Origin: an uncultured Selenomonadales bacterium
Lineage (GTDB): Bacteria > Bacillota > Negativicutes > Selenomonadales > Selenomonadaceae
DNA: 64,000 bases
Reading direction: 5' to 3'
Assembly: GCA_900314765.1 (NCBI GenBank)
Contig: OMWN01000028.1
Location: 1-64,000, forward strand
Position 1 is the first letter of the stretch; every line of letters begins with the position of its first letter. Under the pieces are notes generated by a model. The model did not search any database and had not been told where the DNA came from. It saw only the letters and a program-made list of their open reading frames with translations. The position numbers and the translations under genes were made by a program. Below are positions 13,557 through 48,379 of this stretch, piece after piece.

Positions 13557-13810
13557 ACCCTCTCCGCCTCGCATTCGCTCGGCACCTCCCCCATTGGGGA
13601 GGCTGGCTTCACAGATGCTAAAATTATTTACACAATCTGAAGCGGTTCATTAATTAAGCGTAACTTCGCATTTCCATAGAATTAAAAATCATGCAATTTG
13701 CATATCTGTAAAATGAATAGCTGACATTAAACATTTTATCATATTGTTCAATAGAGGCTCTGCATGCCTCCCACTCTGGGGGAGGTGGCCCCGCAGGGGC
13801 CGGAGAGGGT
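13557..13810. repeat. Large palindromic repeat element, copy A
   Basis: A 254-bp element with inverted ends ACCCTCTCCG and GGAGAGGGT. Just inside each end is a strong hairpin (CTCCCCCATTGGGGAG on the left; CTCCCACTCTGGGGGAG and GGCCCCGCAGGGGCC on the right). The AT-rich centre resembles the reversed centres of copies at 31122 and 40370. It fills most of the gap between cobC and cobD and has no believable ORF. Confidence 0.75.
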
Positions 13811-20353: not shown

Positions 20354-20456
20354 GTCACCCCACCACCGCCTACGGCGGTCCCCCGCCACCGACTTCGCTG
20401 GATGTGAGAGAGTAAGCGCTAAAGCACTAACTCTCTCATCACCTCAAGGGGCGGAC
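20354..20456. repeat. Palindromic repeat E with a nested hairpin
   Basis: Outer parts match the simple repeat at 59493-59540 (GTCACCCCACCACCGCC, GGCGGTCCCC, AAGGGGCGGAC). Here about 55 extra bases sit between the CCCC and GGGG arms. They form their own hairpin, TGAGAGAGT/ACTCTCTCA with an inner stem of AAGCGC/GCACT type. The rest of the gap 20457-20573 is AT-rich with no clear signal. Confidence 0.7.
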
Positions 20457-27061: not shown

Positions 27062-27134
27062 ACAAATATTGCGTCGAAAACCGCGCCCCTGCCTATCAAC
27101 CGTAGGACAACGCGCAAAATGCGCGAGACGATAT

Positions 27135-27290
27135 CGAAAAGGCAGGTCTCCTGGCTAAACTCATCGCGCCCGCACGCCTTCCCGAAAATCAGTGGCAGAG
27201 GGACAAACCCATCATGGCGAGCACTCATTCATACAGTGGCGGGACCGCGCCGGGATGCACCGGACTTCCCTTTTAAGCAAATGCGCCTTT
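27135..27290 (-). promoter_or_regulatory. Cobalamin (B12) riboswitch
   Basis: The minus strand shows the conserved parts in order: AAAAGGGAAGTCCGGTG (27258-27274), GGTCCCGCCACTGTATG (27230-27246), GCCACTGATTTTCGGGAAGG (27175-27195) and the B12 box AGCCAGGAGACCTGCC (27141-27156). These define the adenosylcobalamin-binding aptamer. It stands about 100 bases before cbiD and should shut off the whole 14-kb operon when B12 is plentiful. Confidence 0.95.
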
Positions 27291-27301
27291 TCACGGGTTA
27301 T

Positions 27302-27330
27302 ATTATAACGCAATCATTCACAATTTGCCA
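27302..27330 (-). promoter_or_regulatory. Promoter of the cobalamin operon
   Basis: A perfect TATAAT on the minus strand (27302-27307), with a weak TGGCAA (27325-27330) 17 bases upstream. The implied transcript begins just before the riboswitch. Confidence 0.55.
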
Positions 27331-31121: not shown

Positions 31122-31397
31122 ACCCTCTCCGCCCCCTGCGGGGGCACCTCCCCCAGAGTGGGAGGCATAGCGAAAGCAGTCCTTAACGATATGATAAAGA
31201 TTAAACGCAACCTCTCACTTTACAGAATAAAACAAGCTACATGACTTTAATTACGATGAGAATTTGTAGTTACGCTTTTGCTAGTGAATCGATTCAACTA
31301 GTGCAAATAATCATAGAATCTGTGACGCCAGCCTCCCCAATGGGGGGCAAACATGCCAGTGGCATGTTTGCGCGAGCGAATGCGAGGCGGAGAGGGT
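31122..31397. repeat. Large palindromic repeat element, copy B
   Basis: A 276-bp element, reversed relative to copy A at 13557. Ends are ACCCTCTCCGCC and GGCGGAGAGGGT, with terminal hairpins (GCCCCCTGCGGGGGC; CTCCCCAATGGGG). The AT-rich centre shares blocks with the other copies, such as AATCTGTG next to the right hairpin. It carries a nested palindrome at 31348-31370. No gene is seen in the gap 31070-31498. Confidence 0.75.
31348..31370. repeat. Nested 23-bp palindrome in repeat copy B
   Basis: CAAACATGCCA and TGGCATGTTTG flank a single G. The same palindrome, with T-A instead of C-G at its outer pair, sits in the corresponding place in the element at 58224-58470. Confidence 0.75.
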
Positions 31398-35640: not shown

Positions 35641-37359
35641 TTATTTCGACTTGCCGCTGTCGTTGCCGCGGCTCGGCGTCGAGCCCTGTGATGATGAGCC
35701 ACTGCTTGTGCCGCTCGGTTTGCTGCTCGAGCGGCTCTCGGCGACGACGAAATCGACCTCTGAGCCCGCCTCTGCCGTCGAGCCGCCCGACGGCGTCTGC
35801 CCGATGATGGTGCCGGGCGTCGCTGAGCTCGTGCTCTTCGTGACGCTTCCGACCGAGAGGCCGAGCGAGTTGAGGCTTGTCTTCGCAGAGCTTACGGTGC
35901 TGCCCGTGAAGTCTGGCACCGTCACCATCTTTACGGCCTTGCCCTTGCTGATCGTTATGTCGACGGATTTGCCTTGGTCGATTTTATTGCCCGGCGATGG
36001 CTCCTGCCCTATGACCGTGCCTTGATCCGCATCGGATTCTTTTTCGTAGACGGTGCCGATTTTGAGCCCCATTTTTTCGAGCTTATCGACGGCCGCTGAC
36101 TTCGAGAGTCCCTTCACGTCCGGCATCGTCATTTCCTGTCCGCCTCGGCTGACCTCTATCGTGACGACGCGGTTCTCCTTGACGCGCGAATTCGCCTCTG
36201 GGTCCTGCTTGACGACGTGGCCTGCTGGCACCTTCGCGTCGTACACCTCCGACACATTCACTCTGAGGTGCGCCGACTCGAGTATCTCCTTCGCGAGCGC
36301 CATCTGCTTTCCCTTGACGTCCGGCACGGTGACCTCGCTCTTGCCGAGCATGCCGCCGAAAGCGAAGAATATGCCGAACGCGAAGCCGAGCACGAGGAGC
36401 GCCGCTATCACAATCAAATATTTGCGTTTCTTCGAGCCACCGCTTTTTTCCTCAACTCCATCGTCCTCGATGTCCTCATCGGAAATGGCGGGCATCATGC
36501 GCGTCGCGAATGGGTCGTTCGACGCCTCGAGCACAGAGTAGCCGAGCATGCGCTCCGCTTGGCGAATGTCCTCTATCATCTCGCGCGCCGTGAAGCGCTC
36601 GTCCGCGTTCTTCGCCATTGCCTTCAGCACGATGGACTCGACGATGGGCGGTATGTCGGGATTGAGCTCACGCGGCGGCACGGGCTCCTCCTGCAAATGC
36701 TTCAACGCGACGCTGACCGTCGTCTCGCCCGTGAACGGCAAGTGTCCCGTCAGCATCTCATACATCACGACGCCGAGCGAATAAATATCCGACTTCGGCG
36801 TTATCTGCGTGCCCTTCGCCTGCTCCGGCGAGAAATAATGAACAGAGCCGACAACATTGCCGTTGTACGTCATCGTGGACTGCGTGACGGCGCGCGCGAT
36901 GCCGAAGTCTGCGACTTTCACGCGGCCATCGCGCATCACGAGTATGTTGTGCGGCTTTATGTCGCAATGGACGAGATTATTCGCGTGGGCGTCGGCCAGC
37001 GCACTCGCTATCTCGCGGGCAATGCGCAGCGACTCCTCGACGGGGAGCCTGCCCTCGCGGTCGATGAGGCTCTTCAACGTCTCGCCCGCCGCGTACTCCA
37101 TTATGATGAAATGGTCGTCACCGTCCGTGCCGACATCGTATATATTGACAATATTGGGGTGAGAAAGCCTCGCCGCCGCCTGTGCCTCCTGCTGAAAGCG
37201 CTCCAAGAAGCTCCTGTCACGTGCCAGCTGTGGATGAAGTATCTTCACCGCCACGACACGGTCGAGAACCTTGTCGTGCGCCTTGTACACATCCGCCATG
37301 CCACCCCCGCCGACGTGCTCAAGAATCTCATACCGATTCCCTAGTACACCGCGTTCCAT
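35641..37359 (-). CDS. prkC: PASTA-domain Ser/Thr protein kinase PrkC
   Basis: Membrane sensor kinase of 572 residues that reads cell-wall fragments. Kinase domain (about 10-270): GGGGMADVYKA loop, VAVKIL lysine, DFGIA, and a Thr-rich activation segment TQSTMTYNGNVVGS. The catalytic loop reads HCDIKPHN instead of the usual HRDIKPHN, so the RD arginine is Cys. One transmembrane helix (about 312-335) is followed by three extracellular PASTA repeats beginning VPDVKGK, MPDVKGL and VPDFTGS, then a Ser-Gly-rich tail. Start ATG 37359 with AGGAGG 8 bases upstream. It is the last of the fhaA-stp-prkC set. Confidence 0.95.
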   Translation of the reverse strand: MERGVLGNRYEILEHVGGGGMADVYKAHDKVLDRVVAVKILHPQLARDRSFLERFQQEAQAAARLSHPNIVNIYDVGTDGDDHFIIMEYAAGETLKSLIDREGRLPVEESLRIAREIASALADAHANNLVHCDIKPHNILVMRDGRVKVADFGIARAVTQSTMTYNGNVVGSVHYFSPEQAKGTQITPKSDIYSLGVVMYEMLTGHLPFTGETTVSVALKHLQEEPVPPRELNPDIPPIVESIVLKAMAKNADERFTAREMIEDIRQAERMLGYSVLEASNDPFATRMMPAISDEDIEDDGVEEKSGGSKKRKYLIVIAALLVLGFAFGIFFAFGGMLGKSEVTVPDVKGKQMALAKEILESAHLRVNVSEVYDAKVPAGHVVKQDPEANSRVKENRVVTIEVSRGGQEMTMPDVKGLSKSAAVDKLEKMGLKIGTVYEKESDADQGTVIGQEPSPGNKIDQGKSVDITISKGKAVKMVTVPDFTGSTVSSAKTSLNSLGLSVGSVTKSTSSATPGTIIGQTPSGGSTAEAGSEVDFVVAESRSSSKPSGTSSGSSSQGSTPSRGNDSGKSK

Positions 37360-37527
37360 GGTCATTTCCTCCTTACAAAGCATTGCTGCCCTCGCCGCCC
37401 TTGGCGGCAATTTAGGCTGTTATTCATTGTGTATTATATGCAAATCACGCAAATCGTATTCTTGCAAATTTTGCGACTGACAATTAATTTATTTGCTTGA
37501 TACTTATAAGCTAATGACTATCCACGA

Positions 37528-37669
37528 GGTGATGCCAGCACGAAGTAACTTAGCAATTTCCTTACAGGCTCTTTGGTTGGCTCCGAAGCGGCGTGTTTTC
37601 GCTTTTGCCGCGAGGAGTCCAGCACTAGAGCCTGTCAAAATTGCGCAGTGGATGAGGGCTGGCCTCACC
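37528..37669. repeat. Long-hairpin element, copy 1 (between stp and prkC)
   Basis: A 142-bp imperfect palindrome with nested stems: GGTGATGCCAG/CTGGCCTCACC (37528-37538, 37659-37669), GCAATTT/AAATTGC, ACAGGCTCT/AGAGCCTGT (37564-37572, 37627-37635) and GCGGC/GCCGC at the tip. A closely related copy in the opposite orientation lies at 46739-46879. It splits the stp-prkC gap; a frame of 74 codons over it has no family features. Nothing else is seen in 37360-37703. Confidence 0.8.
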
Positions 37670-37703
37670 GAGTTGTTTCCCACTGCTTTTAAAAATAATA
37701 ATC

Positions 37704-38420
37704 CTAATAATCAATGACAATCGCCGAGATATTGTCGTGGCTGTCATTTTTGAGCGCCGCATCGACAAGCGCCTGCGCGCGATTTTCGACAGCTCTGTCG
37801 CCAATGATGCGGGCTATCTCCTCATCCGTCACGACGGAGTGAACACCGTCGCTCATGAGCGCGATCGTGTCGCCCTCGGCGACATCAAACGTGCCCGTGT
37901 CGACGATGAGATTTTCGTCGACGCCGACGGCCCTCATAAGCACGTTGCGCTGCGGGTGGACACGCGCCTCCTCCGCTGTGATTTTGCCCTTCTCCACAAG
38001 GTCATTCACATACGAATGGTCGCGCGTCACTTGACGAAGCTCGCCGCCGCGCAGCACATAGAGCCGCGTGTCGCCGACATGCGCGAAGTAGCCTTTGCCG
38101 CCTTCCTCATGAAACAGCGTCGCCGTCGTGCCCATGCCCTTGTATTCCGGATGATTGCTCACATGCTCGAGAATTTTTTCGTTGGCGCCCGTTATGATTT
38201 TTTTCAGCGAAATCTCGCTGACGCCGAGGCTCGCCTCATCGCGGAGCACTGCCTCTGCCATGTCGATGACAGCCGTGCTCGCGACCTCGCCCGCCACATG
38301 GCCGCCCATGCCGTCCGCCACGATGAATGTGTCCGGCGCGATTTTCGCGACCCTGTCCTCATTGTTCGGACGCGTTGGGCCTATGTCCGTCGCAAGAGAG
38401 GCATTTTTTATTTTTAGCAC
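37704..38420 (-). CDS. stp: PP2C-type Ser/Thr phosphatase Stp
   Basis: Partner phosphatase of PrkC, 238 residues, metal-dependent PP2C fold. Motifs include TRPNNEDRV (about 16), VADGMGGHVAGEVAS (about 35-50), HVGDTRLYVLR (about 120), TRDHSYVNDLV and ALMSDGVH (about 190), and DNISAIVI at the end. The start is GTG 38420 with GGTGA upstream, one base after the fhaA stop. In other Firmicutes stp and prkC overlap or adjoin; here 344 bases with a hairpin element separate them. Confidence 0.95.
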   Translation of the reverse strand: MLKIKNASLATDIGPTRPNNEDRVAKIAPDTFIVADGMGGHVAGEVASTAVIDMAEAVLRDEASLGVSEISLKKIITGANEKILEHVSNHPEYKGMGTTATLFHEEGGKGYFAHVGDTRLYVLRGGELRQVTRDHSYVNDLVEKGKITAEEARVHPQRNVLMRAVGVDENLIVDTGTFDVAEGDTIALMSDGVHSVVTDEEIARIIGDRAVENRAQALVDAALKNDSHDNISAIVIDY

Positions 38421-38421
38421 T

Positions 38422-39165
38422 CTATATCACCTCATAGCGGATTACGGTGCTGCCGAGCCTGACCTCGTCGCCGTCGCTTAAGCAGGCCGACTTCACGAGC
38501 TCGCCGTTCACGAATGTGCCGTTCAGACTGTCCGCGTCGTATATGACGTGGCGATGACGCTCATACTCGACGTACGCATGAAGCCGCGACGCATTGAGGT
38601 CACTGAGGACAAGCTCATTCTTGTCGCGTCGCCCGATGTATATCTTTCGCTCGCCGAATTCGAGCGTCTTGTCCATGTCTGGCCCATCGATGACGCGCAT
38701 GACGACGAATTTCCGCGCGGGCGGCAGATTGAGCGGCACCTCATAGCCGAGGCGCGCGAGCACGAGCGTGCCGCCGTCCGCGCCGTCGACCTCGTCCTCT
38801 TCTCGCTCATCCTCGAAGCACGAGCTCACGTCGCACTCGCCCTCCGTCATGTCGAACGACTCCGAGAGCTTCACGTCGAGCGGACCGTCCATGAAGCTAT
38901 CAGAGAGAATGACCTCGCGCTCGATGAACATGTTTATTTCTTCGATGAAGCGGCGCGATGACAGCCGATGATAATCATCGACGCAGAGCGACACCTCGAA
39001 CGAGTTTGGCAAAAGCGCGCCGCGCGAGAGCTTTCTTCTGCTTTTTTTGAGCTCTTCGCCGAGCGCGAGCTCCACGTCGTCGGGCGTAAGCTCATTTCTG
39101 ATGCCCCGATGAAAAAGGCCGCCGATATGTTTTTCAAAAAGTGAGCCGATTTTTGGAAATTTCAA
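38422..39165 (-). CDS. FhaA-like FHA-domain protein (DUF3662 plus FHA)
   Basis: A 247-residue phosphothreonine-reading adaptor. The N-terminal DUF3662 domain (about 1-110) is like that of mycobacterial FhaA. It is joined by an acidic linker (EDEREEDEVDG) to a C-terminal FHA domain with IYIGRRDKNELVLSD (about 172), SRLHAYVEYE (about 192) and DSLNGTFVNGE (about 213). FhaA-type proteins bind phosphorylated PrkC/PknB targets in cell-wall control, so the fhaA-stp-prkC order makes functional sense. Confidence 0.9.
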   Translation of the reverse strand: MKFPKIGSLFEKHIGGLFHRGIRNELTPDDVELALGEELKKSRRKLSRGALLPNSFEVSLCVDDYHRLSSRRFIEEINMFIEREVILSDSFMDGPLDVKLSESFDMTEGECDVSSCFEDEREEDEVDGADGGTLVLARLGYEVPLNLPPARKFVVMRVIDGPDMDKTLEFGERKIYIGRRDKNELVLSDLNASRLHAYVEYERHRHVIYDADSLNGTFVNGELVKSACLSDGDEVRLGSTVIRYEVI

Positions 39166-39189
39166 ATCGAATCCCCCTCGATGATGCCG

Positions 39190-39258
39190 AAGGAAACACT
39201 GATTATTTCAGCGAAAAAATCTCTCGTCAATACTACAGCTTTAATTAATCAGCGCTTC
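39190..39258. repeat. Small inverted-repeat element between rlmN and fhaA
   Basis: AAGGAAACACTGATTA (39190-39205) and TAATCAGCGCTTC (39246-39258) bound 69 bases. The arms match the ends of the element at 12791-12896, with a shared CTGATTATTT stretch next to one arm. Confidence 0.5.
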
Positions 39259-39268
39259 AATAAAAATT

Positions 39269-40312
39269 TTACTTCTCTATGTGCTGATTGCGCAGTTGGC
39301 CGCATGCCGCAGCAATGTCCGTTCCCATCTCGCGCCGTACCGTCGCCGCAATGTGTCGCTCCGTCAAAATTTGCAGGAATTTTTCTATTCGCGCTGATGA
39401 CGGTCGCTTAAAATCACGCTCCGTCACGGGATTGAGCGGAATGAGATTGACGCTCGCGAGCTGACCGCGAATGAGGCGCGCGAGCTCCTTCGCGTTGTCG
39501 TCGCTGTCATTGACACCCGCAATCAAAAGATACTCGTACGTCACGCGCCGCTTTGTCGTGTCGCCATAGCGCTTGCCCGCCGCGACGACGGCGGCAATGC
39601 CGTATTTTTTATTGATGGGCATGAGCTCTGAGCGTATGTCGTCGTTCGGCGCGTGAAGCGATATGGCGAGCGACACGGGTATCTCCTCCGCCGCGAGACG
39701 GTCGATGCCCTCGACGATGCCCGCCGTTGAGAGCGTGATGCTCCTGTACGATATGCCGAGCGTGTACGGCTCATGAACGAGGCGCATGAACTTCACGACA
39801 TTCTCGTAGTTCATCATCGGCTCGCCCGAGCCCATGAGCACCATCGTGTCCACTTTCTTGTCCTCGTTCTGCCTCAGATAATCGTCGATGAACAGCACCT
39901 CCGCGAGCATCTCGCCCGACGTGAGATTGCGCTCGACGCCGTGCACCGTCGACGCGCAGAACGCGCAGCCCATCGCGCAGCCCGCCTGCGTCGATATGCA
40001 GATGCTCGAGCCGTAGTTGTGGCGCATGAGCACGGACTCGACGGCGACGCCATCGCCAAAGCCCAAGAGAAACTTCGTCGTCTCGCCGTCTGATGAATCC
40101 CATTTCTCGATGAGCGTCGGGCGCTGAATGACGAAATGCTCGCTGAGCGTCTCCTGCATCGCCTTGCCGATGTTCGTCATCTCAGCGAACGACGACGCGC
40201 CTTTTTTGTACATCCAATCGGCTATCTGCTTCGCACGAAATTTTTGCAGCTTCAGCGCCGTGATTTTCTGTTCAATTTCCGCCAGTGTCAATCCATAAAT
40301 ATTCTCAAGCAT
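39269..40312 (-). CDS. rlmN: Dual-specificity RNA methyltransferase RlmN
   Basis: Radical-SAM enzyme of 347 residues that makes 2-methyladenosine at A2503 of 23S rRNA and A37 of some tRNAs. The cluster motif CAMGCAFC (about 112-119) and the second catalytic Cys in AAACGQL near the C-terminus are both present, with GSGEPMMNYENV (about 160) and STAGIV. Its place after rsmB is usual in Firmicutes, although a 349-base gap with a repeat now separates them. Confidence 0.96.
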   Translation of the reverse strand: MLENIYGLTLAEIEQKITALKLQKFRAKQIADWMYKKGASSFAEMTNIGKAMQETLSEHFVIQRPTLIEKWDSSDGETTKFLLGFGDGVAVESVLMRHNYGSSICISTQAGCAMGCAFCASTVHGVERNLTSGEMLAEVLFIDDYLRQNEDKKVDTMVLMGSGEPMMNYENVVKFMRLVHEPYTLGISYRSITLSTAGIVEGIDRLAAEEIPVSLAISLHAPNDDIRSELMPINKKYGIAAVVAAGKRYGDTTKRRVTYEYLLIAGVNDSDDNAKELARLIRGQLASVNLIPLNPVTERDFKRPSSARIEKFLQILTERHIAATVRREMGTDIAAACGQLRNQHIEK

Positions 40313-40369
40313 CTTATTTCCTTTATATGAGATTCAAGAAAAACTGCTCATCCTAATTGGGCTGTGCAA

Positions 40370-40571
40370 ACCCTCTCCGGCCCCTACGGGGCCACCTCCC
40401 CCAAAGGGGGAGGCAAAATTCGAGAATTTTTGTGTTTAAACTTAAACTACGAAACCATCGATTTCACGCTTTCATTAGTCGATCATTCGGCTAGCGTAAA
40501 TAATTTCAGAATCTGTGGGGTCAGCCTCCCCCTCTGGGGGAGGTGCCGAGCGAATGCGAGGCGGAGAGGGT
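40370..40571. repeat. Large palindromic repeat element, copy C
   Basis: A 202-bp element with ends ACCCTCTCCGG and GGCGGAGAGGGT, and hairpins GGCCCCTACGGGGCC, CTCCCCCAAAGGGGGAG and CTCCCCCTCTGGGGGAG just inside. Same orientation as copy B. It occupies most of the gap 40313-40661 inside the rsmB-rlmN run. Confidence 0.8.
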
Positions 40572-40661
40572 CACGCAACCGAGTCATTTTACATCTGATT
40601 TCATAATGCATTAAAACATGAAAAACGAAATTCAAAAACACAGCGTTTTTATAAATTCACC

Positions 40662-42008
40662 TTACACTTTTCGCCTCATGCGCGCTATGAAAAATCCGTC
40701 GACGCCGTCGCGCTGCGGATATAGCTGTATCATTTCCTCGTCGCGTTTCTTTATCGGGAGCAGTTGCCCCGCGTTCTCGAGCGCAAATTCATCGTGGCGC
40801 GCGAGGAACGCGCGCACGACGTCCTCATTCTCTGCGTGATTCATCGTGCACGTGCTGTAGACGATGACGCCACCCGCCTTCACCGCGCGCGCCGCGCTCT
40901 CGAGTATCTCGCTTTGGAGCTTCGGCAGTTTGTTTATCTCCGACAGCCTTTTTCGCCATCGCGCGTCGGGGCGACGCCTCAGCACGCCGAGCCCCGAGCA
41001 CGGCGCATCAATCAGCACGCGGTCTGCCATCGCCTCATATTCCTCGCCGATTTCCCGCGCGTCCATATTAATCGTCTCTACAATGTCGATGCCAAGCCGC
41101 GCGGCGTTCTCCTCGACCGTCTTTAGCTTCGCCTCGTATATGTCTGCCGCTATGACGCGCCCATCATTTTTCATCATGGCCGCAATGTGCGTCGTCTTGC
41201 CGCCCGGCGCACTGCACGCATCGATAACGAGCTCTCCGGGCTTCGGCTCAAGGATATGCGCGACCATCATCGAGCTCTCGTCCTGCGCTTGCCAGAGTCC
41301 ATCTGCCAGCGACTTCATCGTGTCCATATTGCCGTGCTTCGTGCACAGTATGCCCTCCGTCGCCCATTTCGACGACTCGACCGTCGCGCCCTCGTTCTCC
41401 ATGATCATCATGAGCTCGTTGCGGCTCGTCTTCAGCGTGTTCGCGCGTATCGAGAGCACTGCGGGCTCATTGTCAAACGCGCAGAGTTTTTTCGTCTCGT
41501 CCACGCCAAATTCGCCAATCCATCGCTTCACGAGCCACCTTGGGTGCATCATCGTGAGCGCGATGCTGTCGGCATCGTCATCTTCCGCCGATGGAAACTT
41601 CGCGCGCTCGGGCTCGCGCACCGCCGTCCGCAGCACGGCGTTCACATATTTCGATGCGCCGATGCGCTTCTCATGCTTTTTCACGAGCTCGACCATCTCA
41701 TTGACAGCCGCAGACGGCGGCACCTTGTCGAGGAAAAACAGTTGATAGACACCGAGCCTCAGTGCCGCGCGCACGATGGGCGACAGCTTTTTTACGAGCT
41801 TAGTCGAATATTTTTTTATGATCCAATCGAGCGTGTCGCCCGCCTTCACGGCGCCGTAGACGAGCTCCGTCGCAAATCGCCTGTCTATGTCCTTTATGTC
41901 GGGCGATTTTTTGAGCTCGCGCGCGAGCGACACATTCGCGTACGCGTCGTTCTCGTGCACGTCCATGAGCACGAGCATCGCGATTTCACGCGCCTTATCC
42001 ATTTTCAT
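40662..42008 (-). CDS. rsmB: 16S rRNA m5C967 methyltransferase RsmB
   Basis: A 448-residue SAM-dependent enzyme. An N-terminal NusB-like RNA-binding domain (about 1-140) precedes the Rossmann methyltransferase with DACSAPGGKTTHIA (about 262), the two catalytic cysteines in LIDAPCSGLGVLRRRPD (about 333) and YSTCTMNHAENE (about 395). Its start lies inside the end of the DUF116 gene (14-base overlap), so the two are translated together. Confidence 0.96.
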   Translation of the reverse strand: MKMDKAREIAMLVLMDVHENDAYANVSLARELKKSPDIKDIDRRFATELVYGAVKAGDTLDWIIKKYSTKLVKKLSPIVRAALRLGVYQLFFLDKVPPSAAVNEMVELVKKHEKRIGASKYVNAVLRTAVREPERAKFPSAEDDDADSIALTMMHPRWLVKRWIGEFGVDETKKLCAFDNEPAVLSIRANTLKTSRNELMMIMENEGATVESSKWATEGILCTKHGNMDTMKSLADGLWQAQDESSMMVAHILEPKPGELVIDACSAPGGKTTHIAAMMKNDGRVIAADIYEAKLKTVEENAARLGIDIVETINMDAREIGEEYEAMADRVLIDAPCSGLGVLRRRPDARWRKRLSEINKLPKLQSEILESAARAVKAGGVIVYSTCTMNHAENEDVVRAFLARHDEFALENAGQLLPIKKRDEEMIQLYPQRDGVDGFFIARMRRKV

Positions 42009-42798
42009 TGTCCTTTTCGTCGTGGATGAGCATTCTCTCTATCTCCTCGCGCACGAGATTTATGTCGACGTGCGTGTTGTAGCATGGCCCATTCGGGCGA
42101 ATATTCATGACGCCGACCGCTGGCAGTGGGTAGACGTCCTGTATGCCGCTCGTGAGGTCGCGCTCACAGGCAATGGCCAGCACCGCCCGCGGGCGAATTT
42201 TCTTCACGGTCTGACGCGCGAGCGTGCCGCCCGTCACGACGAAGAAATGAAAGCCCATCTCCTCAGCGAGCGTCACGAGCGCGCCGATATCACAGCCGCC
42301 GCAGCGCTTGCAGTTCGCCATCGGATCACGCGTGATTTTGTGCGGGCAGCTCGCGAGCTGCAGGCAATGCGGCGTGACGACGAGCAGCTCATTAGCGTGC
42401 ACCTTTATATGCTGCTGGTGAATGATTTGGTTGCTGACCGCGACGAATGACCGCTCTATGCGACGACGACTCACGCCGAAAATCTTGCCGAGCAACACCG
42501 CTATCGGAAAAAGCGCATTGATGAGGGCGTACGTCCTGCGCTGAAAAAGCGAGAAGAACGGCAGCCCCATGATTGCACCAACGATGCTGACGATGCCGAG
42601 CCCCGTGACGATGATGACCGCCGCGAAAAGCCCGCCGATGATGCCCGGCAAGTACTCCGAAATCTCGCGAAGGCCGAGGTAGCTCACGCGCCAGACGCCG
42701 TAGCCGATGGCCGCGACAATGACGAGAGAGAGCGACATGAGGGCGATGAAAAGCCTCTTGCGCGGCCTCTCAAGGCCCAGTTCCAGTGTATCTGCCAT
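41995..42798 (-). CDS. DUF116 membrane protein
   Basis: A 267-residue protein with two or three N-terminal transmembrane helices (about 15-85) and a cytoplasmic Cys-rich domain. The conserved part has PHCLQLASCP (about 143) and NCKRCGGCDIG (about 160-170), which could hold a metal or Fe-S cluster. A later AIACERDL stretch adds another Cys. The family is of unknown function but is regularly found between fmt and rsmB in Firmicutes, as here. Confidence 0.88.
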   Translation of the reverse strand: MADTLELGLERPRKRLFIALMSLSLVIVAAIGYGVWRVSYLGLREISEYLPGIIGGLFAAVIIVTGLGIVSIVGAIMGLPFFSLFQRRTYALINALFPIAVLLGKIFGVSRRRIERSFVAVSNQIIHQQHIKVHANELLVVTPHCLQLASCPHKITRDPMANCKRCGGCDIGALVTLAEEMGFHFFVVTGGTLARQTVKKIRPRAVLAIACERDLTSGIQDVYPLPAVGVMNIRPNGPCYNTHVDINLVREEIERMLIHDEKDNENG

Positions 42799-42846
42799 AT
42801 ATAATGAACCTCTTATGAATCCATTAAATCCAGTATTTTAGAATTT

Positions 42847-43812
42847 TTACTCAAACTTGCTGCCAACGGTAATGGCGTGACCCCTCAAATAGTCGGCGGC
42901 GCTCATGCGCTTCTTGCCCGGCGCCTGTATCTCCGTGATGGTAATGACGCCGTCGCCCGTCGCTACATCTATGCCGTCTTTGCCGACCGCAACGATCTCT
43001 CCCGCCACGCTTGCGCCGTCAGATGCCACGACGCTCACTTTCGTGCGCCATATCTTATACTTTTTGCCGTCCATTGACGAATAGGCGCCGGGCCACGAGT
43101 CGAGCGCGCGCACGAGGTCGTGAATGCTTTTCGCGCTCTTCGTCCAATCGATATGACCCGTCTCACTCGTGAGCATCGGCGAATAGCGCGCGTTTTCCTT
43201 GACGCCCGTGTCGTCCTGCTTCTCGCGCTTTGCCGTACCGTCGATGAGCGCGTTCACCGTCGAGACGAGGAGTCGCGCGCCCATCTTTGAGAGCGCATCG
43301 TGAAGCTCCTCGAGCGTCATGTCGGGCGTGATCTCTATCTCGTCGCGCTCGAGCATGTCGCCCGTGTCGAGCCCCACGTCCATCATCATCGTCGTGACGC
43401 CTGTCTTTGTCTCGCCGTTTATGATGCACCACTGCATCGGCGCCGCCCCACGATACGACGGCAGGAGCGACGCGTGCACATTCACGCAGCCGAGGCGCGG
43501 CACATCGAGCAGCGCCTTCGACAGTATTTGCCCGAATGCGACGACGACAATGATGTCCGGCGCTATCTTTTTCAGCGTCGTGACAAATTCGTCCGTCTTC
43601 ACGCGCTCAGGCTGATACACATCGATGCCGCGCTCGACGGCGAATGATTTCACAGGCGACGGCGTGAGCTTATGGCCACGACCACGCGGCCTGTCGGGCT
43701 GCGTCACGACGCCGACGACATCGACGCGCTCCATTTCCGTGAGCGCTTTCAGACACGGCACCGCGAAATCCGGCGTGCCCATGAAGACGGCCTTTATCGT
43801 TTTATTCGTCAT
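42847..43812 (-). CDS. fmt: Methionyl-tRNA formyltransferase
   Basis: Formylates Met-tRNAfMet for translation initiation. The 321-residue protein has FMGTPDFAVPCL (N-terminus), the catalytic region NVHASLLPSYRGAAPMQW (about 107-124) with Asn, His and later Asp in DVGLDTGDML (about 140), and a C-terminal OB-like domain. The start lies in the end of def (11-base overlap), the classic def-fmt pairing. Confidence 0.97.
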   Translation of the reverse strand: MTNKTIKAVFMGTPDFAVPCLKALTEMERVDVVGVVTQPDRPRGRGHKLTPSPVKSFAVERGIDVYQPERVKTDEFVTTLKKIAPDIIVVVAFGQILSKALLDVPRLGCVNVHASLLPSYRGAAPMQWCIINGETKTGVTTMMMDVGLDTGDMLERDEIEITPDMTLEELHDALSKMGARLLVSTVNALIDGTAKREKQDDTGVKENARYSPMLTSETGHIDWTKSAKSIHDLVRALDSWPGAYSSMDGKKYKIWRTKVSVVASDGASVAGEIVAVGKDGIDVATGDGVITITEIQAPGKKRMSAADYLRGHAITVGSKFE

Positions 43813-44272
43813 CGTCTCCCGTCTCCCGCCTCAAGTTCTTCGCAATGTCGATGAAGAGAATGCCGTCTAGGTGGTCGCACTCGTGCTGAATGCAGCGCGC
43901 GAGCAGCTTCTCTGCGGCGAGCTTCCTGCGCTTGCCGTAGCGCGTCGTATACTCGACCTCTATCTTCGCCGCGCGCTCGACGTCGCCGTATATGTCCGGC
44001 ACGGAGAGGCAGCCCTCCGAGTCAATCGCGCTGCCATCGCGCATCGTTATCACAGGGTTGATGAGTTCGAGAATGCCGTCACCTATGTCTATGACGACCG
44101 CTCGCATCGAGACGCCCACCTGCGGCGCCGCGATGCCTATGCCGTTGAATTTATACATCGTCTCAGCCATGTCATCGAGAAGATGCCTGAGCTTTGCGTC
44201 CACCTTTTTCACGGGCGCGCACTTCGTCTTGAGCACGGGCGCACCGGCCTTCATGATATTGAGTATTGCCAT
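43802..44272 (-). CDS. def: Peptide deformylase
   Basis: Removes the formyl group from new proteins. The 156-residue metalloenzyme has all three motifs: GIGIAAPQVG (about 43), EGCLSVP (about 86) and QHECDHLDG (about 130). ATG 44272 is chosen for its match to family starts (AILNIMKAGAPVLK) and GGCAGGA just upstream; a frame to 44299 adds nine unlikely residues. The 5' region 44273-44364 is AT-rich. Confidence 0.97.
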   Translation of the reverse strand: MAILNIMKAGAPVLKTKCAPVKKVDAKLRHLLDDMAETMYKFNGIGIAAPQVGVSMRAVVIDIGDGILELINPVITMRDGSAIDSEGCLSVPDIYGDVERAAKIEVEYTTRYGKRRKLAAEKLLARCIQHECDHLDGILFIDIAKNLRRETGDDDE

Positions 44273-44364
44273 ATCCTGCCTTCTTTCTATATTTTTCAAT
44301 CATTACATTATATCACACATAATAATAAAGACTAGCAAAAATATTTTTAACCAGCTTTATACAT

Positions 44365-44398
44365 ACAAATAAAGCCACCACAAAAACTGTGATGGCTT
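44365..44398 (-). terminator. Terminator of tmRNA
   Basis: On the minus strand AAGCCATCACA pairs with TGTGGTGGCTT around a T-rich loop, followed by TTATTTG. It lies just after the tmRNA CCA end. Confidence 0.8.
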
Positions 44399-44408
44399 GG
44401 GTTATTAC

Positions 44409-44757
44409 TGGTGGAGATGAGGAGAATTGAACTCCTGTCCGAAGGTGTCGTTTCACGGGTTTCTCCGAGCGAAGCCTGTGTTTTGCTTTAAGGTCTCAGG
44501 CGTCCGCAGGCAGACTCAAAAGACCCGATCTCGATGAAGTTCTCCACCAATCTCCGAGAATTGACGATGGAACAGCCCACGGCTGTCCTCTATCCTACCC
44601 GCGTGGGCTCAGATAAGTAGAGGCTGGCGTTAAGCCGCCAGAGCGTAATCTTCGTTTGCTTTTATGTTTAGATAAAAGTTTCACCTTGCTGACGGGATGG
44701 TGACCCCCGGCTCGCTGCCCATGCACCGTCCGCCCCCGTCGAGACCATTGCATCCCC
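44409..44757 (-). ncRNA. ssrA: tmRNA (ssrA), tag ANEDYALAA
   Basis: A 349-base trans-translation RNA. The 5' end GGGGATG (44751-44757) pairs with CATCTCC before the encoded ACCA (44409-44412), and the T-arm reads TTCAATTC. The tag frame at 44630-44659 begins GCAAACGAA and ends GCGGCTTAA, giving ANEDYALAA, preceded by the usual A-rich stretch after a pseudoknot. It rescues stalled ribosomes and marks products for proteolysis. Confidence 0.97.
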
Positions 44758-44794
44758 GATGAGGCACATTGCGTGCATGACTTTCACTGTGTTT

Positions 44795-44823
44795 ATTCTA
44801 CAATAACGAGCAGTCTTCGTCAA
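44795..44823 (-). promoter_or_regulatory. Promoter of tmRNA
   Basis: On the minus strand TTGACG (44818-44823) and TAGAAT (44795-44800, preceded by TG) are 17 bases apart, about 38 bases before the mature 5' end. Confidence 0.75.
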
Positions 44824-44892
44824 GGTCATCGCTGAACCATGAGTTCAAAACAAAATCACACGCCACACGCACTAATGCCTCATCATTGTCTA

Positions 44893-44921
44893 TTGACTGA
44901 AAATAAAACGGTCGATAAAAT
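44893..44921 (+). promoter_or_regulatory. Promoter of the HTH-SGNH gene pair
   Basis: TTGACT (44893-44898) and TAAAAT (44916-44921) are 17 bases apart. AGAGAGG at about 44951-44957 then precedes the first gene. Confidence 0.65.
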
Positions 44922-44969
44922 AATAATGAAACTTTTATCAATTCAAAACCAGAGAGGTCTTTTACATTG

Positions 44970-45212
44970 ATGAACCGCGTAACACAATACAGGATACAGG
45001 CGGGCTGGTCGCCTAATGAGCTCTCGAGCATTTTCAAGGTGCCGGCGGGCATCGTGAACAAATGGGAGCACGGCGAGCTCGAACCGCCCGCGTGGATAGA
45101 GGAGCGCATTCGCGCGAAGATGATGGAGGAACAGAAAAAACGATTCTCGAAGAAAAAGCGTCGCCCAAATCCTTTGACGAGCGGCGACCCGACGCGCAGG
45201 TGGCATCCATGA
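44970..45212 (+). CDS. Small HTH (XRE-like) protein
   Basis: An 80-residue basic protein. Residues about 5-45 look like a Cro/C1-type helix-turn-helix (YRIQAGWSPNELSSIFKV, then IVNKWEHGELEPP), followed by a highly charged tail (KKRFSKKKRRP). The start may be ATG 44970 or the TTG directly before it. Its stop overlaps the ATG of the secreted SGNH hydrolase (ATGA). It may regulate that gene, or be a DNA-binding remnant kept for translational coupling. No close family is recognised. Confidence 0.65.
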   Translation: MNRVTQYRIQAGWSPNELSSIFKVPAGIVNKWEHGELEPPAWIEERIRAKMMEEQKKRFSKKKRRPNPLTSGDPTRRWHP

Positions 45213-46636
45213 ATCATTCACGTATTTCTTTCAATGAAAAAATTGCGCGTCTCACGAAAAAAGTGATGGGACTCGTCACGGCATCGCTCATATCATTTTC
45301 ATGCACGCCATCTTTAGCGCAGGCAAATGAATCGAGCGCGGCGAAGACGACCGAGGTGGCGGAGTTCACTGACCCCGCACCGACAAATCTCACGATGACG
45401 ACAGCAGACGCGCCGCTATCGCTCTCGCCCATCATTCGATGGAGCAAGGACACGAACGCCGTCTCATACGAGCTCGAGCTCTTCAGCAAAAAGCCGAAGA
45501 AAATTTCGCGCGAGAACGCGAGCAAAAAAGCCATCTATCGCACGAGCGACATATACGCAAATGCAGTCAACATCCCGATTGACGAAATCGTCGGCGAAAA
45601 CGTGACACGTCAGCCGCTGTGGTGGCGCGTGCGCGCAAAAAATCTCGCGGGCGAGCCCATCAGCCCATTCAGCGACCTCGCGCCGCTATACACGAATGCG
45701 GAGCTGCCGAGGACGAATGCGCCCGTGCCGAACGAGATGCCCGAGGACGAGCTCGGCGCGCGTCTCCTCTACCCAGTGTACAGCTGGGTGCGGCCACACG
45801 ATGCGGCGGGCTTTACGATAGAGCTATACGACACGGACCCCGACACGACCGATGACGCCGTGCCCATCGACACATTCACGTCGCCGATTGCCGAGTTCTA
45901 CGACCCGTCGCCGCGCCTCTCCGAAGAGCCATTCTACTGGCGCGTGCGCTCGACCGATGAAAACGGCGCACCGATTGGCGAGTGGTCGAGCGTGTCGTCA
46001 TTCACGACGTCGCCGAGCGAGCAATGGGACATCGGCGTCATGGGCGACAGCATCAGCCACGGCGGCGGCCATCTCTCGTATGGCCCCGAGGACCTCGAGT
46101 TCAGCTGGCTTCACTATCTCGATTTCCCCGCAATCAACCTGTCGCAGAGCGGCAACGTGACAGCTGACCTCGTTGAACGTTTCGAGCGCGACGTGCTGCC
46201 ATTCCGCCCGCACTATCTCATCATCATGGCGGGCTCAAACGACCTGCGTTCCGATGAATTCACAACGGCTGAGGCCATAGACAACATAAAGGCGCTGACG
46301 ATAAAATGCATCGCTCGCGGCATCAGCCCGATTTTTCTGACGTTGCCGCCCGTCAACGCCGCATCGATTCGGCGCGCGTTCGACGAGCCAACGGACCCCG
46401 ATTGGCAGAGAAAATTCGCGGAATACAATGATTTCCTGCGCACGCTGCCGCACATAGACGTCGCGAGCTCGTTTGAGGCGTACAGCCTCGACGATGGCAG
46501 CCTGCCTGAATGGATGGGACTCGACGGGCTCCATGAGGACGTCATCGGCAAGCAGCTCATCGCTGCTCGCGTCAACGCCGATTGGGACAGGGCCGCTGCC
46601 GAGGCTGACAAAATCAAGCTTGAAATAAGGCCATAA
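45209..46636 (+). CDS. Secreted SGNH/GDSL hydrolase with Fn3-like domains
   Basis: A 475-residue exported protein. A signal peptide with a longish N-region ends near SCTPSLAQA (about 33). Two Fn3-like domains follow (about 50-150, SPIIRWSKDTNAVSYELEL...; about 175-270, PVYSWVRPHDAAGFTIELY... FYWRVRSTDENG). The catalytic SGNH domain covers about 275-475: GDSISHGGG (Ser), LSQSGNV (Gly), MAGSNDLR (Asn), and DGLHEDVIG (Asp and His). Enzymes of this class remove acyl groups from glycans, peptidoglycan or lipids. In a diderm host it probably acts in the periplasm or on the surface. Coupled to the HTH gene by an ATGA overlap. Confidence 0.82.
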   Translation: MNHSRISFNEKIARLTKKVMGLVTASLISFSCTPSLAQANESSAAKTTEVAEFTDPAPTNLTMTTADAPLSLSPIIRWSKDTNAVSYELELFSKKPKKISRENASKKAIYRTSDIYANAVNIPIDEIVGENVTRQPLWWRVRAKNLAGEPISPFSDLAPLYTNAELPRTNAPVPNEMPEDELGARLLYPVYSWVRPHDAAGFTIELYDTDPDTTDDAVPIDTFTSPIAEFYDPSPRLSEEPFYWRVRSTDENGAPIGEWSSVSSFTTSPSEQWDIGVMGDSISHGGGHLSYGPEDLEFSWLHYLDFPAINLSQSGNVTADLVERFERDVLPFRPHYLIIMAGSNDLRSDEFTTAEAIDNIKALTIKCIARGISPIFLTLPPVNAASIRRAFDEPTDPDWQRKFAEYNDFLRTLPHIDVASSFEAYSLDDGSLPEWMGLDGLHEDVIGKQLIAARVNADWDRAAAEADKIKLEIRP

Positions 46637-46738
46637 GATGATATAATCACCTATAAACAGGGATTATCGTGATGATATTTGAAAACTTAAGGAAATATCT
46701 TATATCATGAGTTCGTAAAATTATAGAGAACGTAACTC

Positions 46739-46879
46739 GGCGACGCCAGTCCTCATCCACTGCGCAATTTCAACAGGCTCTACCACTGGCTTCCTCGCGG
46801 CAAAAGCGAAAACACGCCGCTTCGGAGCCAGCTTAAGAGCCTGTAGGAAATTGCTAAGCTACTTCAGACTGGCATCGCC
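46739..46879. repeat. Long-hairpin element, copy 2
   Basis: A 141-bp copy, in the opposite orientation, of the element at 37528-37669, with the same nested stems. The outer stem reads GGCGACGCCAGT/ACTGGCATCGCC; relative to copy 1 a T-A pair has become C-G, so the stem is kept. It lies between the SGNH gene and the flavodiiron gene. The rest of 46637-46925 is AT-rich. Confidence 0.8.
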
Positions 46880-46925
46880 TCGAGAATATTTACAAATTCA
46901 TATAAATATGAAAGGGGACATGAAT

Positions 46926-48092
46926 ATGAAGGCTGTTCAAATCAAGCCCAACATCTACTGGGTAGGCGCCATAGACTGGTCGATGAGGACGTTTCACGGC
47001 TACTCGACGGGCCGCGGCTCATCGTACAACGCGTATCTCATCATCGATGACAAGGTGACGCTCATCGACACGGTGAAGGCGCCGTTCTACGAGGAAATGC
47101 TCGCGCGCATCTCGTCCGTCATTGACCCCGCGAAAATCGACGTCATCGTCTCGAACCACGTGGAGCCCGACCACTCGGGAAGCCTCGCGCTCCTCTGCCA
47201 TCACGCCGCGACGCACGCGACCGTCGTCACGAGCAATCCGCAGGGGCTCAAGGGGCTCACTGCGAGATATGGCAATCTCAATTATCAGCCTGTAAAATCG
47301 GGCGAGGAAATCAGCATCGGCAAGCGCACGCTCAAATTCGTTGCGACACCGATGCTCCATTGGCCGGACAGCATGGTCACGTATTGCCCAGAGGAAAAGA
47401 TTCTTTTCTCGAACGACGCATTCGGCCAGCACCTCGCCGCGAACAAGAGATTTGACGACGAGAATGATCTCCACGTCATCATGGAGGAAGCGCGCAAATA
47501 TTACGCGAACATCCTCATGCTCTACGGCAAGCAGGCACAAGGTGCGCTCAAGGCGCTGTCGTCGCTCGACATCGAGATGATAGCCGTCGGCCACGGCATC
47601 ATCTGGCGCAAGCACATCCTCGACATCCTCGCCGCGTACGAGAAATGGAGCGAGGGCGAGGTCGATGACACAAAGGCCGTCGTCGCGTTCGACACGATGT
47701 GGGGCTCGACCGAGAAGCTCGCGCGTGAAATCACGGATGCGTTCACCGAGCGCGGCATAAAAGTCTCGTATTTCGACCTCAGATGCGACCACATCTCGGA
47801 TGTCGTGACGGCCGTGCTCACGAGCAAATACGTCGCCATCGGCTCGCCGACAATCAATAATCAGATGATGCCGCCCGTGGCCGCGCTGCTCTGCTATCTC
47901 AAAGGCTTCAAGCCAACAGGCAGGAAAGCCATCGCGTTCGGCTCGTACGGCTGGGGCGGCCAGAGCGTGAAGCTCGTCGAGGACGAACTCAAAGCGGCGG
48001 GATTTGAAATCGCGGCGGACATGATACGCGTCGCAAACGTCCCGACTCAGGCCGACCTTGACGACGTAAGAGAAAAAATAAAAGCGATGTAA
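46926..48092 (+). CDS. Flavodiiron protein (A-type flavoprotein, O2/NO reductase)
   Basis: A 388-residue cytoplasmic enzyme that reduces O2 to water, or NO to N2O, in anaerobes. The N-terminal beta-lactamase-like domain has the di-iron ligands in NHVEPDHSG (about 80-88), HWPDS (about 147), NDAFGQH (about 165) and GHGIIWR (about 225). The C-terminal flavodoxin domain (about 255-385) binds FMN, with DTMWGSTEKLA, GSPTINN and SYGWGGQS. Start ATG 46926 with AAAGGGG 8 bases upstream. Together with bacteriohemerythrin it forms an oxygen-defence theme. Confidence 0.95.
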   Translation: MKAVQIKPNIYWVGAIDWSMRTFHGYSTGRGSSYNAYLIIDDKVTLIDTVKAPFYEEMLARISSVIDPAKIDVIVSNHVEPDHSGSLALLCHHAATHATVVTSNPQGLKGLTARYGNLNYQPVKSGEEISIGKRTLKFVATPMLHWPDSMVTYCPEEKILFSNDAFGQHLAANKRFDDENDLHVIMEEARKYYANILMLYGKQAQGALKALSSLDIEMIAVGHGIIWRKHILDILAAYEKWSEGEVDDTKAVVAFDTMWGSTEKLAREITDAFTERGIKVSYFDLRCDHISDVVTAVLTSKYVAIGSPTINNQMMPPVAALLCYLKGFKPTGRKAIAFGSYGWGGQSVKLVEDELKAAGFEIAADMIRVANVPTQADLDDVREKIKAM

Positions 48093-48330: not shown

Positions 48331-48379
48331 ACCCTCTCCGCCTCGCATTCGCTCGGCACCTCCCCCATTGGGGGAGGCT
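48331..48379. repeat. Half copy of the ACCCTCTCCG repeat (copy D)
   Basis: Only the left end is present: ACCCTCTCCGCC, CGCATTCGCTCGGCA and the CTCCCCCATTGGGGGAG hairpin, nearly identical to the left end of copy A at 13557. The other end is missing. With two terminators this accounts for most of the gap 48093-48439. Confidence 0.75.

Follow-up and report, generated by a model that had tools for sequence, protein, structure and literature searches.

The 64,000-nt stretch analyzed here (hereafter, the window; positions 1 to 64,000 of contig OMWN01000028.1, assembly GCA_900314765.1, from an uncultured Selenomonadales bacterium) contains two inverted hairpins—one between stp and prkC, the other upstream of a gene for an FprA-like flavodiiron protein—that we interpret, with a probability of roughly 0.78, as copies of a palindromic mobile repeat that is non-autonomous, private to the species, similar to miniature inverted-repeat transposable elements (MITEs), and constrained in its fold. 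The family is apparently undescribed and belongs to a MITE-like kind already known; its two notable features are a decay of the ends that is uncoupled from conservation of the core, and a pairing bias confined to one strand.

The original prediction, made from the window alone, described a 140-bp element present twice in opposite orientation, and this homology was borne out: arms 37558-37674 and 46734-46850 are 87% complementary between copy 1 and copy 2, and a second pair, 37519-37562 and 46845-46888, is 84% complementary. Both copies form a single long interrupted stem (z = -4.4 and -9.5 against dinucleotide shuffles, element + strand), in which all the nested arms previously named—GCAATTT/AAATTGC, ACAGGCTCT/AGAGCCTGT, and the GCGGC tip—are present, as is the compensating change of the outer stem, where GGTGA/TCACC in copy 1 corresponds to GGCGA/TCGCC in copy 2 (U-A to C-G). 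The hairpins had been located rightly, but their limits were too narrow and the size too small. Comparison across copies delineates a sharply conserved core of 147 nt, from CGAGG to CCGAG, and the better-preserved copies share a fixed layout of an inverted ATGAGTTTGTRAA end, 6 nt, the core, 15-16 nt, and a second inverted end, about 195 bp in total. The parts of the two window copies are as follows:

37525-37672, + strand: hairpin core of copy 1, 148 nt, one base over the 147-nt consensus
37506-37518, + strand: decayed left terminal repeat of copy 1, ATAAGCTAATGAC, with 5 of 13 positions mismatched, 6 nt off the core
46736-46882, - strand: hairpin core of copy 2, 147 nt
46889-46901, - strand: left terminal inverted repeat of copy 2, ATGAATTTGTAAA as read on the - strand, 6 nt off the core
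46707-46719, + strand: right terminal inverted repeat of copy 2, ATGAGTTCGTAAA as read on the + strand, 16 nt off the core

Copy 2 keeps both ends, the full element spanning 46707-46901; the ends of copy 1 are remnants, and its right terminal repeat is no longer recognizable.

The hairpin family is a dispersed repeat private to this species. Within the host assembly—a 98%-complete draft of 2.33 Mb in 103 contigs—blastn recovered at least 40 copies among the matches listed, and a covariance model trained on 31 copies yielded 110 matches over both strands, with approximately 54 strong loci and a number of weaker ones. We compiled at least 60 copies, comprising 52 that are uninterrupted and full-length and 8 interrupted by a nested second MITE; deletion derivatives also occur, namely short forms without the inner stem, such as one in L089. 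The same model found no copies in 60 relatives (1 of 61 genomes positive, the host itself) and none in a further 188 genomes from the family (1 of 189, again the host), where strict filters may miss very divergent forms. Exact-pattern scans of GTDB contigs and virus contigs, similarity searches of plasmid and phage collections, and the literature on Selenomonas and Negativicutes likewise yielded no match or relevant report. The search of related Selenomonadales that had been proposed as a test thus returned no copies in relatives, the family being private to the present genome, and it is here that the copies of interest lie.

That the hairpins might be a miniature mobile element was among the earlier suggestions, and this reading, with a structured body, is supported: at least 60 dispersed copies of a short (~195 bp) element in 2.33 Mb carry terminal inverted repeats at fixed positions. 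Near-exact ATGAGTTTGTRAA end motifs number 39 genome-wide, compared to 0 in the control; by hand count, 20 flank the hairpin, 8 a ACCCTCTCCG repeat, 5 a GTCACCCCACCACC repeat, and 6 none of these. An empty site is available for copy 1—the spacer between stp and prkC measures 344 nt here, with the element, and 33 nt, element-free, in a genome of the same genus (G001, read directly)—although this is a comparison with one empty site only, in a distant genome with ~70% DNA identity. We attribute the present arrangement to insertion because the ends are inverted at a fixed distance, are common to two other repeat families, and are accompanied by this short spacer in G001.

Covariation across the 52 full-length copies supports the earlier proposal of selection that preserves base pairs, or else of correction with the same outcome: 19 pairs show two-sided changes, compared to 6.2 in shuffles, with 48 two-sided cells versus 13.5 and 96.0% of cells paired versus 94.5%. 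None of 500 shuffles reached the observed paired fraction, two-sided pairs, or two-sided cells, and the signal vanished when the partner was shifted by 1-3 columns. Partner columns are correlated (r2 of 0.12-0.39 in 7 of 10 pairs), whereas variants are otherwise nearly unlinked (mean ~0.03 elsewhere), and two-sided changes private to a single copy occur in four cases (core positions A41G/T108C in L075, G63A/C86T in L076, C64T/G85A in L068, and C67T/G82A in L074). At approximately alignment columns 54-57 and 94-98, L076 and L078 carry a block swapped on both arms, with GCTGGC replaced by GCCAGC on the left and GCCAGC by GCTGGC on the right; in L029 the right arm alone is swapped in this block, resembling a caught intermediate.

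Some of these observations would also be expected of a neutral MITE whose core only appears conserved, being kept uniform without selection by conversion from copy to copy and by correction from arm to arm through template switching. Variants reassort extensively and are not tree-like; the private double changes lack intermediates, as arm-to-arm correction predicts; and unpaired columns are about as well conserved as paired ones (7.1% versus 5.8% divergence). We regard this explanation as rather unlikely, since arm correction predicts no strand asymmetry, and such asymmetry was observed among the shared variants (below).

The constrained-fold reading draws further support from the contrast between ends and core. 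Ends are mismatched at 31% of positions on average, with a continuous spread among copies—a spread that disfavors the less fitting alternative of some copies having lacked ends from the outset. Core divergence averages only 6% and is similar whether the ends are intact (6.2%, n = 17) or erased (5.5%, n = 16), and end decay and core divergence are uncorrelated (Spearman -0.08, p = 0.57). Decay of the ends alongside uniform divergence of the core indicates that the element is not a freely decaying insert and that its core is either selected or homogenized.

Shared variants (those found in two or more copies) provide a second line of evidence. When read on the element + strand, they produce 17 G.U versus 2 A.C combinations (p = 0.0007), and no matching mutation bias exists in the unpaired columns, a further point against neutral homogenization. 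Whichever way the genes run, the + strand is also the more stably folded one in 51 of 52 copies. We considered local selection on the mRNA strand as the cause and rejected it after splitting the copies by gene orientation, given that the bias was equal in both groups (G.U to A.C ratios of 50:8 and 11:2). Reconstruction of pair changes with FastTree and Fitch parsimony gave 65 Watson-Crick to G.U versus 17 Watson-Crick to A.C changes, a count that we set aside and did not use as support because the variants are not tree-like. A pairing bias on one strand suggests that the spreading lineage was constrained in the fold of that strand, from which we infer that a single-stranded form, whether RNA or DNA, was important for propagation. 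After insertion, the ends would be free to decay and the core would be held by the importance of its fold on one strand, the constrained form being either a single-stranded intermediate of replication or transposition, or an RNA.

Copies with erased transposon ends retain an intact hairpin, and a bolder extension, which we hold only tentatively and judge doubtful as it stands, treats the core as a folded nucleic acid, specific to one strand, that persists after the transposon that spread it is gone. The ~60 copies would then be relics serving genome-wide as RNA elements at 3' ends and in operon spacers, or the folded + strand would be a copying intermediate independent of the ends.

Several results weigh against our interpretation of a mobile repeat with a constrained fold. 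A G.U preference is absent from private variants (4 G.U versus 7 A.C), which therefore do not demonstrate selection on the local mRNA once the element is in place; gene conversion could lie partly behind the homogeneity of the core, a possibility raised because 436 of 770 site pairs (57%) fail the four-gamete test. The bases next to the ends are also not uniform: TA occurs at both ends of two complete elements of the GTCACCCCACCACC family and of several hairpin copies, suggesting a possible TA target-site duplication for the hairpin family, while other copies have TG or another dinucleotide at the right end. Finally, among the transposase families searched for (PF01797, PF13358, and PF01609), the host genome contains neither PF01797 (Y1_Tnp/RAYT) nor PF13358 (IS630-type DDE_3), in a draft that may miss a multi-copy transposon; two PF01609 (DDE_Tnp_1) genes were considered as mobilizers and rejected, their loci being without ATGAGTTTGTRAA ends. 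Under our preferred interpretation, the repeat would have been spread in trans by a transposase acting on the shared terminal repeats, an enzyme since lost or absent from the draft.

The lack of a Y1_Tnp domain in the host bears most directly on the idea that the element is REPIN-like, with a Y1 (RAYT-type) transposase mobilizing it as a single-stranded hairpin. REPINs are non-autonomous extragenic hairpins with compensatory changes (PMC3116915), and the present element is similarly palindromic, extragenic, and compensated, with a strand-asymmetric pairing that suits a single-stranded intermediate. However, a RAYT is required there, and the architecture differs—a 147-nt core with 13-nt inverted ends here, as opposed to a REP doublet with its conserved 16-mer—leaving this already weakened explanation improbable.

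The genomic context of the copies was examined using gene calls from a simple codon-usage script. Genes enter the element more often from the right (44 copies) than from the left (21 copies; p = 0.006), the split between co-oriented genes is 27:9 (p = 0.004), and the stop codon of the incoming gene mostly lies 20-60 nt from the core. This orientation bias and proximity to stop codons, together with the private two-sided changes and a core that stays constrained though the ends are lost, are what one would expect of a domesticated cis-acting RNA, kept because the host uses the hairpin for mRNA 3'-end protection, processing, or gene insulation. Yet it is the + strand that pairs better in nearly every copy, whereas most of the mRNAs would carry the - strand; the G.U excess is equal in both gene contexts; and private variants lack any such preference. 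Domestication of this kind seems to us unlikely.

The genes around the two window copies, both of which have this co-oriented gene layout, are as follows:

37704-38420, - strand: stp, a PP2C-type phosphatase, upstream of copy 1 in the operon, with its stop codon 31 nt from the core
35641-37359, - strand: prkC, a PASTA-domain Ser/Thr kinase, downstream of copy 1, with a likely start at ATG 37359 after GGAGGAAATGACC
45062-46636, + strand: a GDSL-like hydrolase gene, upstream of copy 2, with its stop 99 nt from the core
46920-48092, + strand: the FprA-like flavodiiron protein gene, downstream of copy 2, with ATG 46920 after AAAGGGG

The listed open reading frame of prkC (35641-37410) is longer than the likely gene, and the mechanical open reading frame of the FprA-like gene starts at 46851. 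On the minus strand, the order is FHA-domain protein, Stp, copy 1, PrkC, and Rpe; on the plus strand, copy 2 separates the GDSL hydrolase from the FprA-like protein. A promoter-like site at 46620-46647 (11 of 12 matches) precedes copy 2, which, judging from this arrangement, may sit in a 5' leader. In the stp-prkC spacer, the element would form a long mRNA hairpin just past a stop codon, most plausibly a site of RNase processing or mRNA stability by analogy with the experimentally shown ERIC and Correia cases. As a repeat insertion, the stp-prkC hairpin would be no dedicated regulator of that operon—a warning for interpretation of the window; the tuning of kinase against phosphatase levels suggested earlier is conjectural.

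Two other functions fit the window copies poorly. A family of bidirectional or intrinsic transcription terminators might be suspected from the long stem, the TCATTTT after the + strand core, and the terminators that adjoin some copies; we consider it very improbable, as neither window copy scores as an intrinsic terminator (a stem with a T-run), copy 1 lies within an operon, and the preferred orientation places the T-poor side downstream. The lone terminator match near copy 1 (37402-37422) falls outside the core. Copies at L023, L028, L063, and L080 begin right after an apparent intrinsic terminator and its T-run, as if this were a preferred target. Independent small RNA genes, also floated in the original prediction, would account for the stable fold and covariation, but we give them hardly any credence. 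An Rfam scan of the window found no family at the hairpins, matching only a tmRNA (44409-44757, - strand) and a cobalamin riboswitch (27124-27305, - strand); promoter support at copy 1 amounts to two weak matches only; conservation upstream of the core reflects the inverted end common to other repeats, not a recognizable promoter; and the 60 copies are found in one species and none elsewhere.

In its construction, the element resembles palindromic mobile repeats such as ERIC and Correia, the Rickettsia palindromic elements being of the same kind, and by this analogy it probably works like them. Like the present element, ERIC elements undergo internal deletions and internal insertions and are not known to have a transposase. 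The likeness, drawn from descriptions of ERIC rather than from sequence alignment, lies in an imperfect central palindrome of intergenic position and multiple copies: ERIC (also IRU or RU-1) is an intergenic imperfect palindrome of ~130 bp in tens to hundreds of copies, co-transcribed with its neighbors and able to change the stability of upstream mRNA in an orientation-dependent manner (PMC2229807, PMC10969869). Its ends measure 7 bp (PMC2229807), compared to 13 nt here, and the present element differs further in being private to one species, in sharing its ends with two other repeat families, and in having only a tentative TA duplication. Correia elements (NEMIS) of Neisseria, ~100-160 bp with terminal inverted repeats and hairpin transcripts cut by RNase III (PMC2229807, PMC10969869), are comparable in size class, terminal repeats, and transcript hairpin (predicted here). 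However, their 24-bp ends are the cleaved part, whereas in the present family conservation resides in the inner hairpin and it is the ends that decay, with no promoter motif recognized in the core. RUP of pneumococcus is a small element with terminal inverted repeats at TA sites, thought to be moved in trans by an insertion sequence (PMC2229807); its ends match IS630-Spn1, in contrast to the present host with no IS630-type transposase (PF13358).

This family lets end decay be compared with conservation of the body copy by copy, a clean natural experiment on whether it is the fold that preserves small palindromic repeats, and the one-strand bias of shared changes poses the question of whether the conserved form is RNA or single-stranded DNA.

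Other repeats in the same genome adjoin or share features with the hairpin family. A second palindromic family, ACCCTCTCCG...CACCTCCCCCA, occurs in the window at 13557-13810, 31122-31397, 40370-40571, and 48331-48367, with 257 matches in the host genome, 12 in G014, and none in a further 39 relatives. Its units are often in inverted pairs ~170-230 bp apart, several copies bear ATGAGTTTGTRAA ends, and the family often adjoins the hairpin element. A third family, GTCACCCCACCACC...GGGGCGGAC (family c), has the same inverted ends and is found in the window at 20354 and 59493 and as two complete elements of ~300 bp, with TA at both ends (L109 1201-1500 and L115 1564-1864). The MITE nested in the 8 interrupted hairpin copies is 158 bp long, with ends AGGAAACACTGATTA and TAATCAGCGTTTCCT, and is unrelated to the hairpin element; its insertions recur close to one and the same inner loop of the hairpin, in either orientation, and are found at other sites too (L079, L081, and L083-L088; also L047, L089, and L116). 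A tandem double terminal repeat, 16 bp apart, lies at G000:C93:12362-12392, flanking the L079 4951-5097 copy on its left, and a similar tandem arrangement is present in the family-c element at L115 1564-1594.

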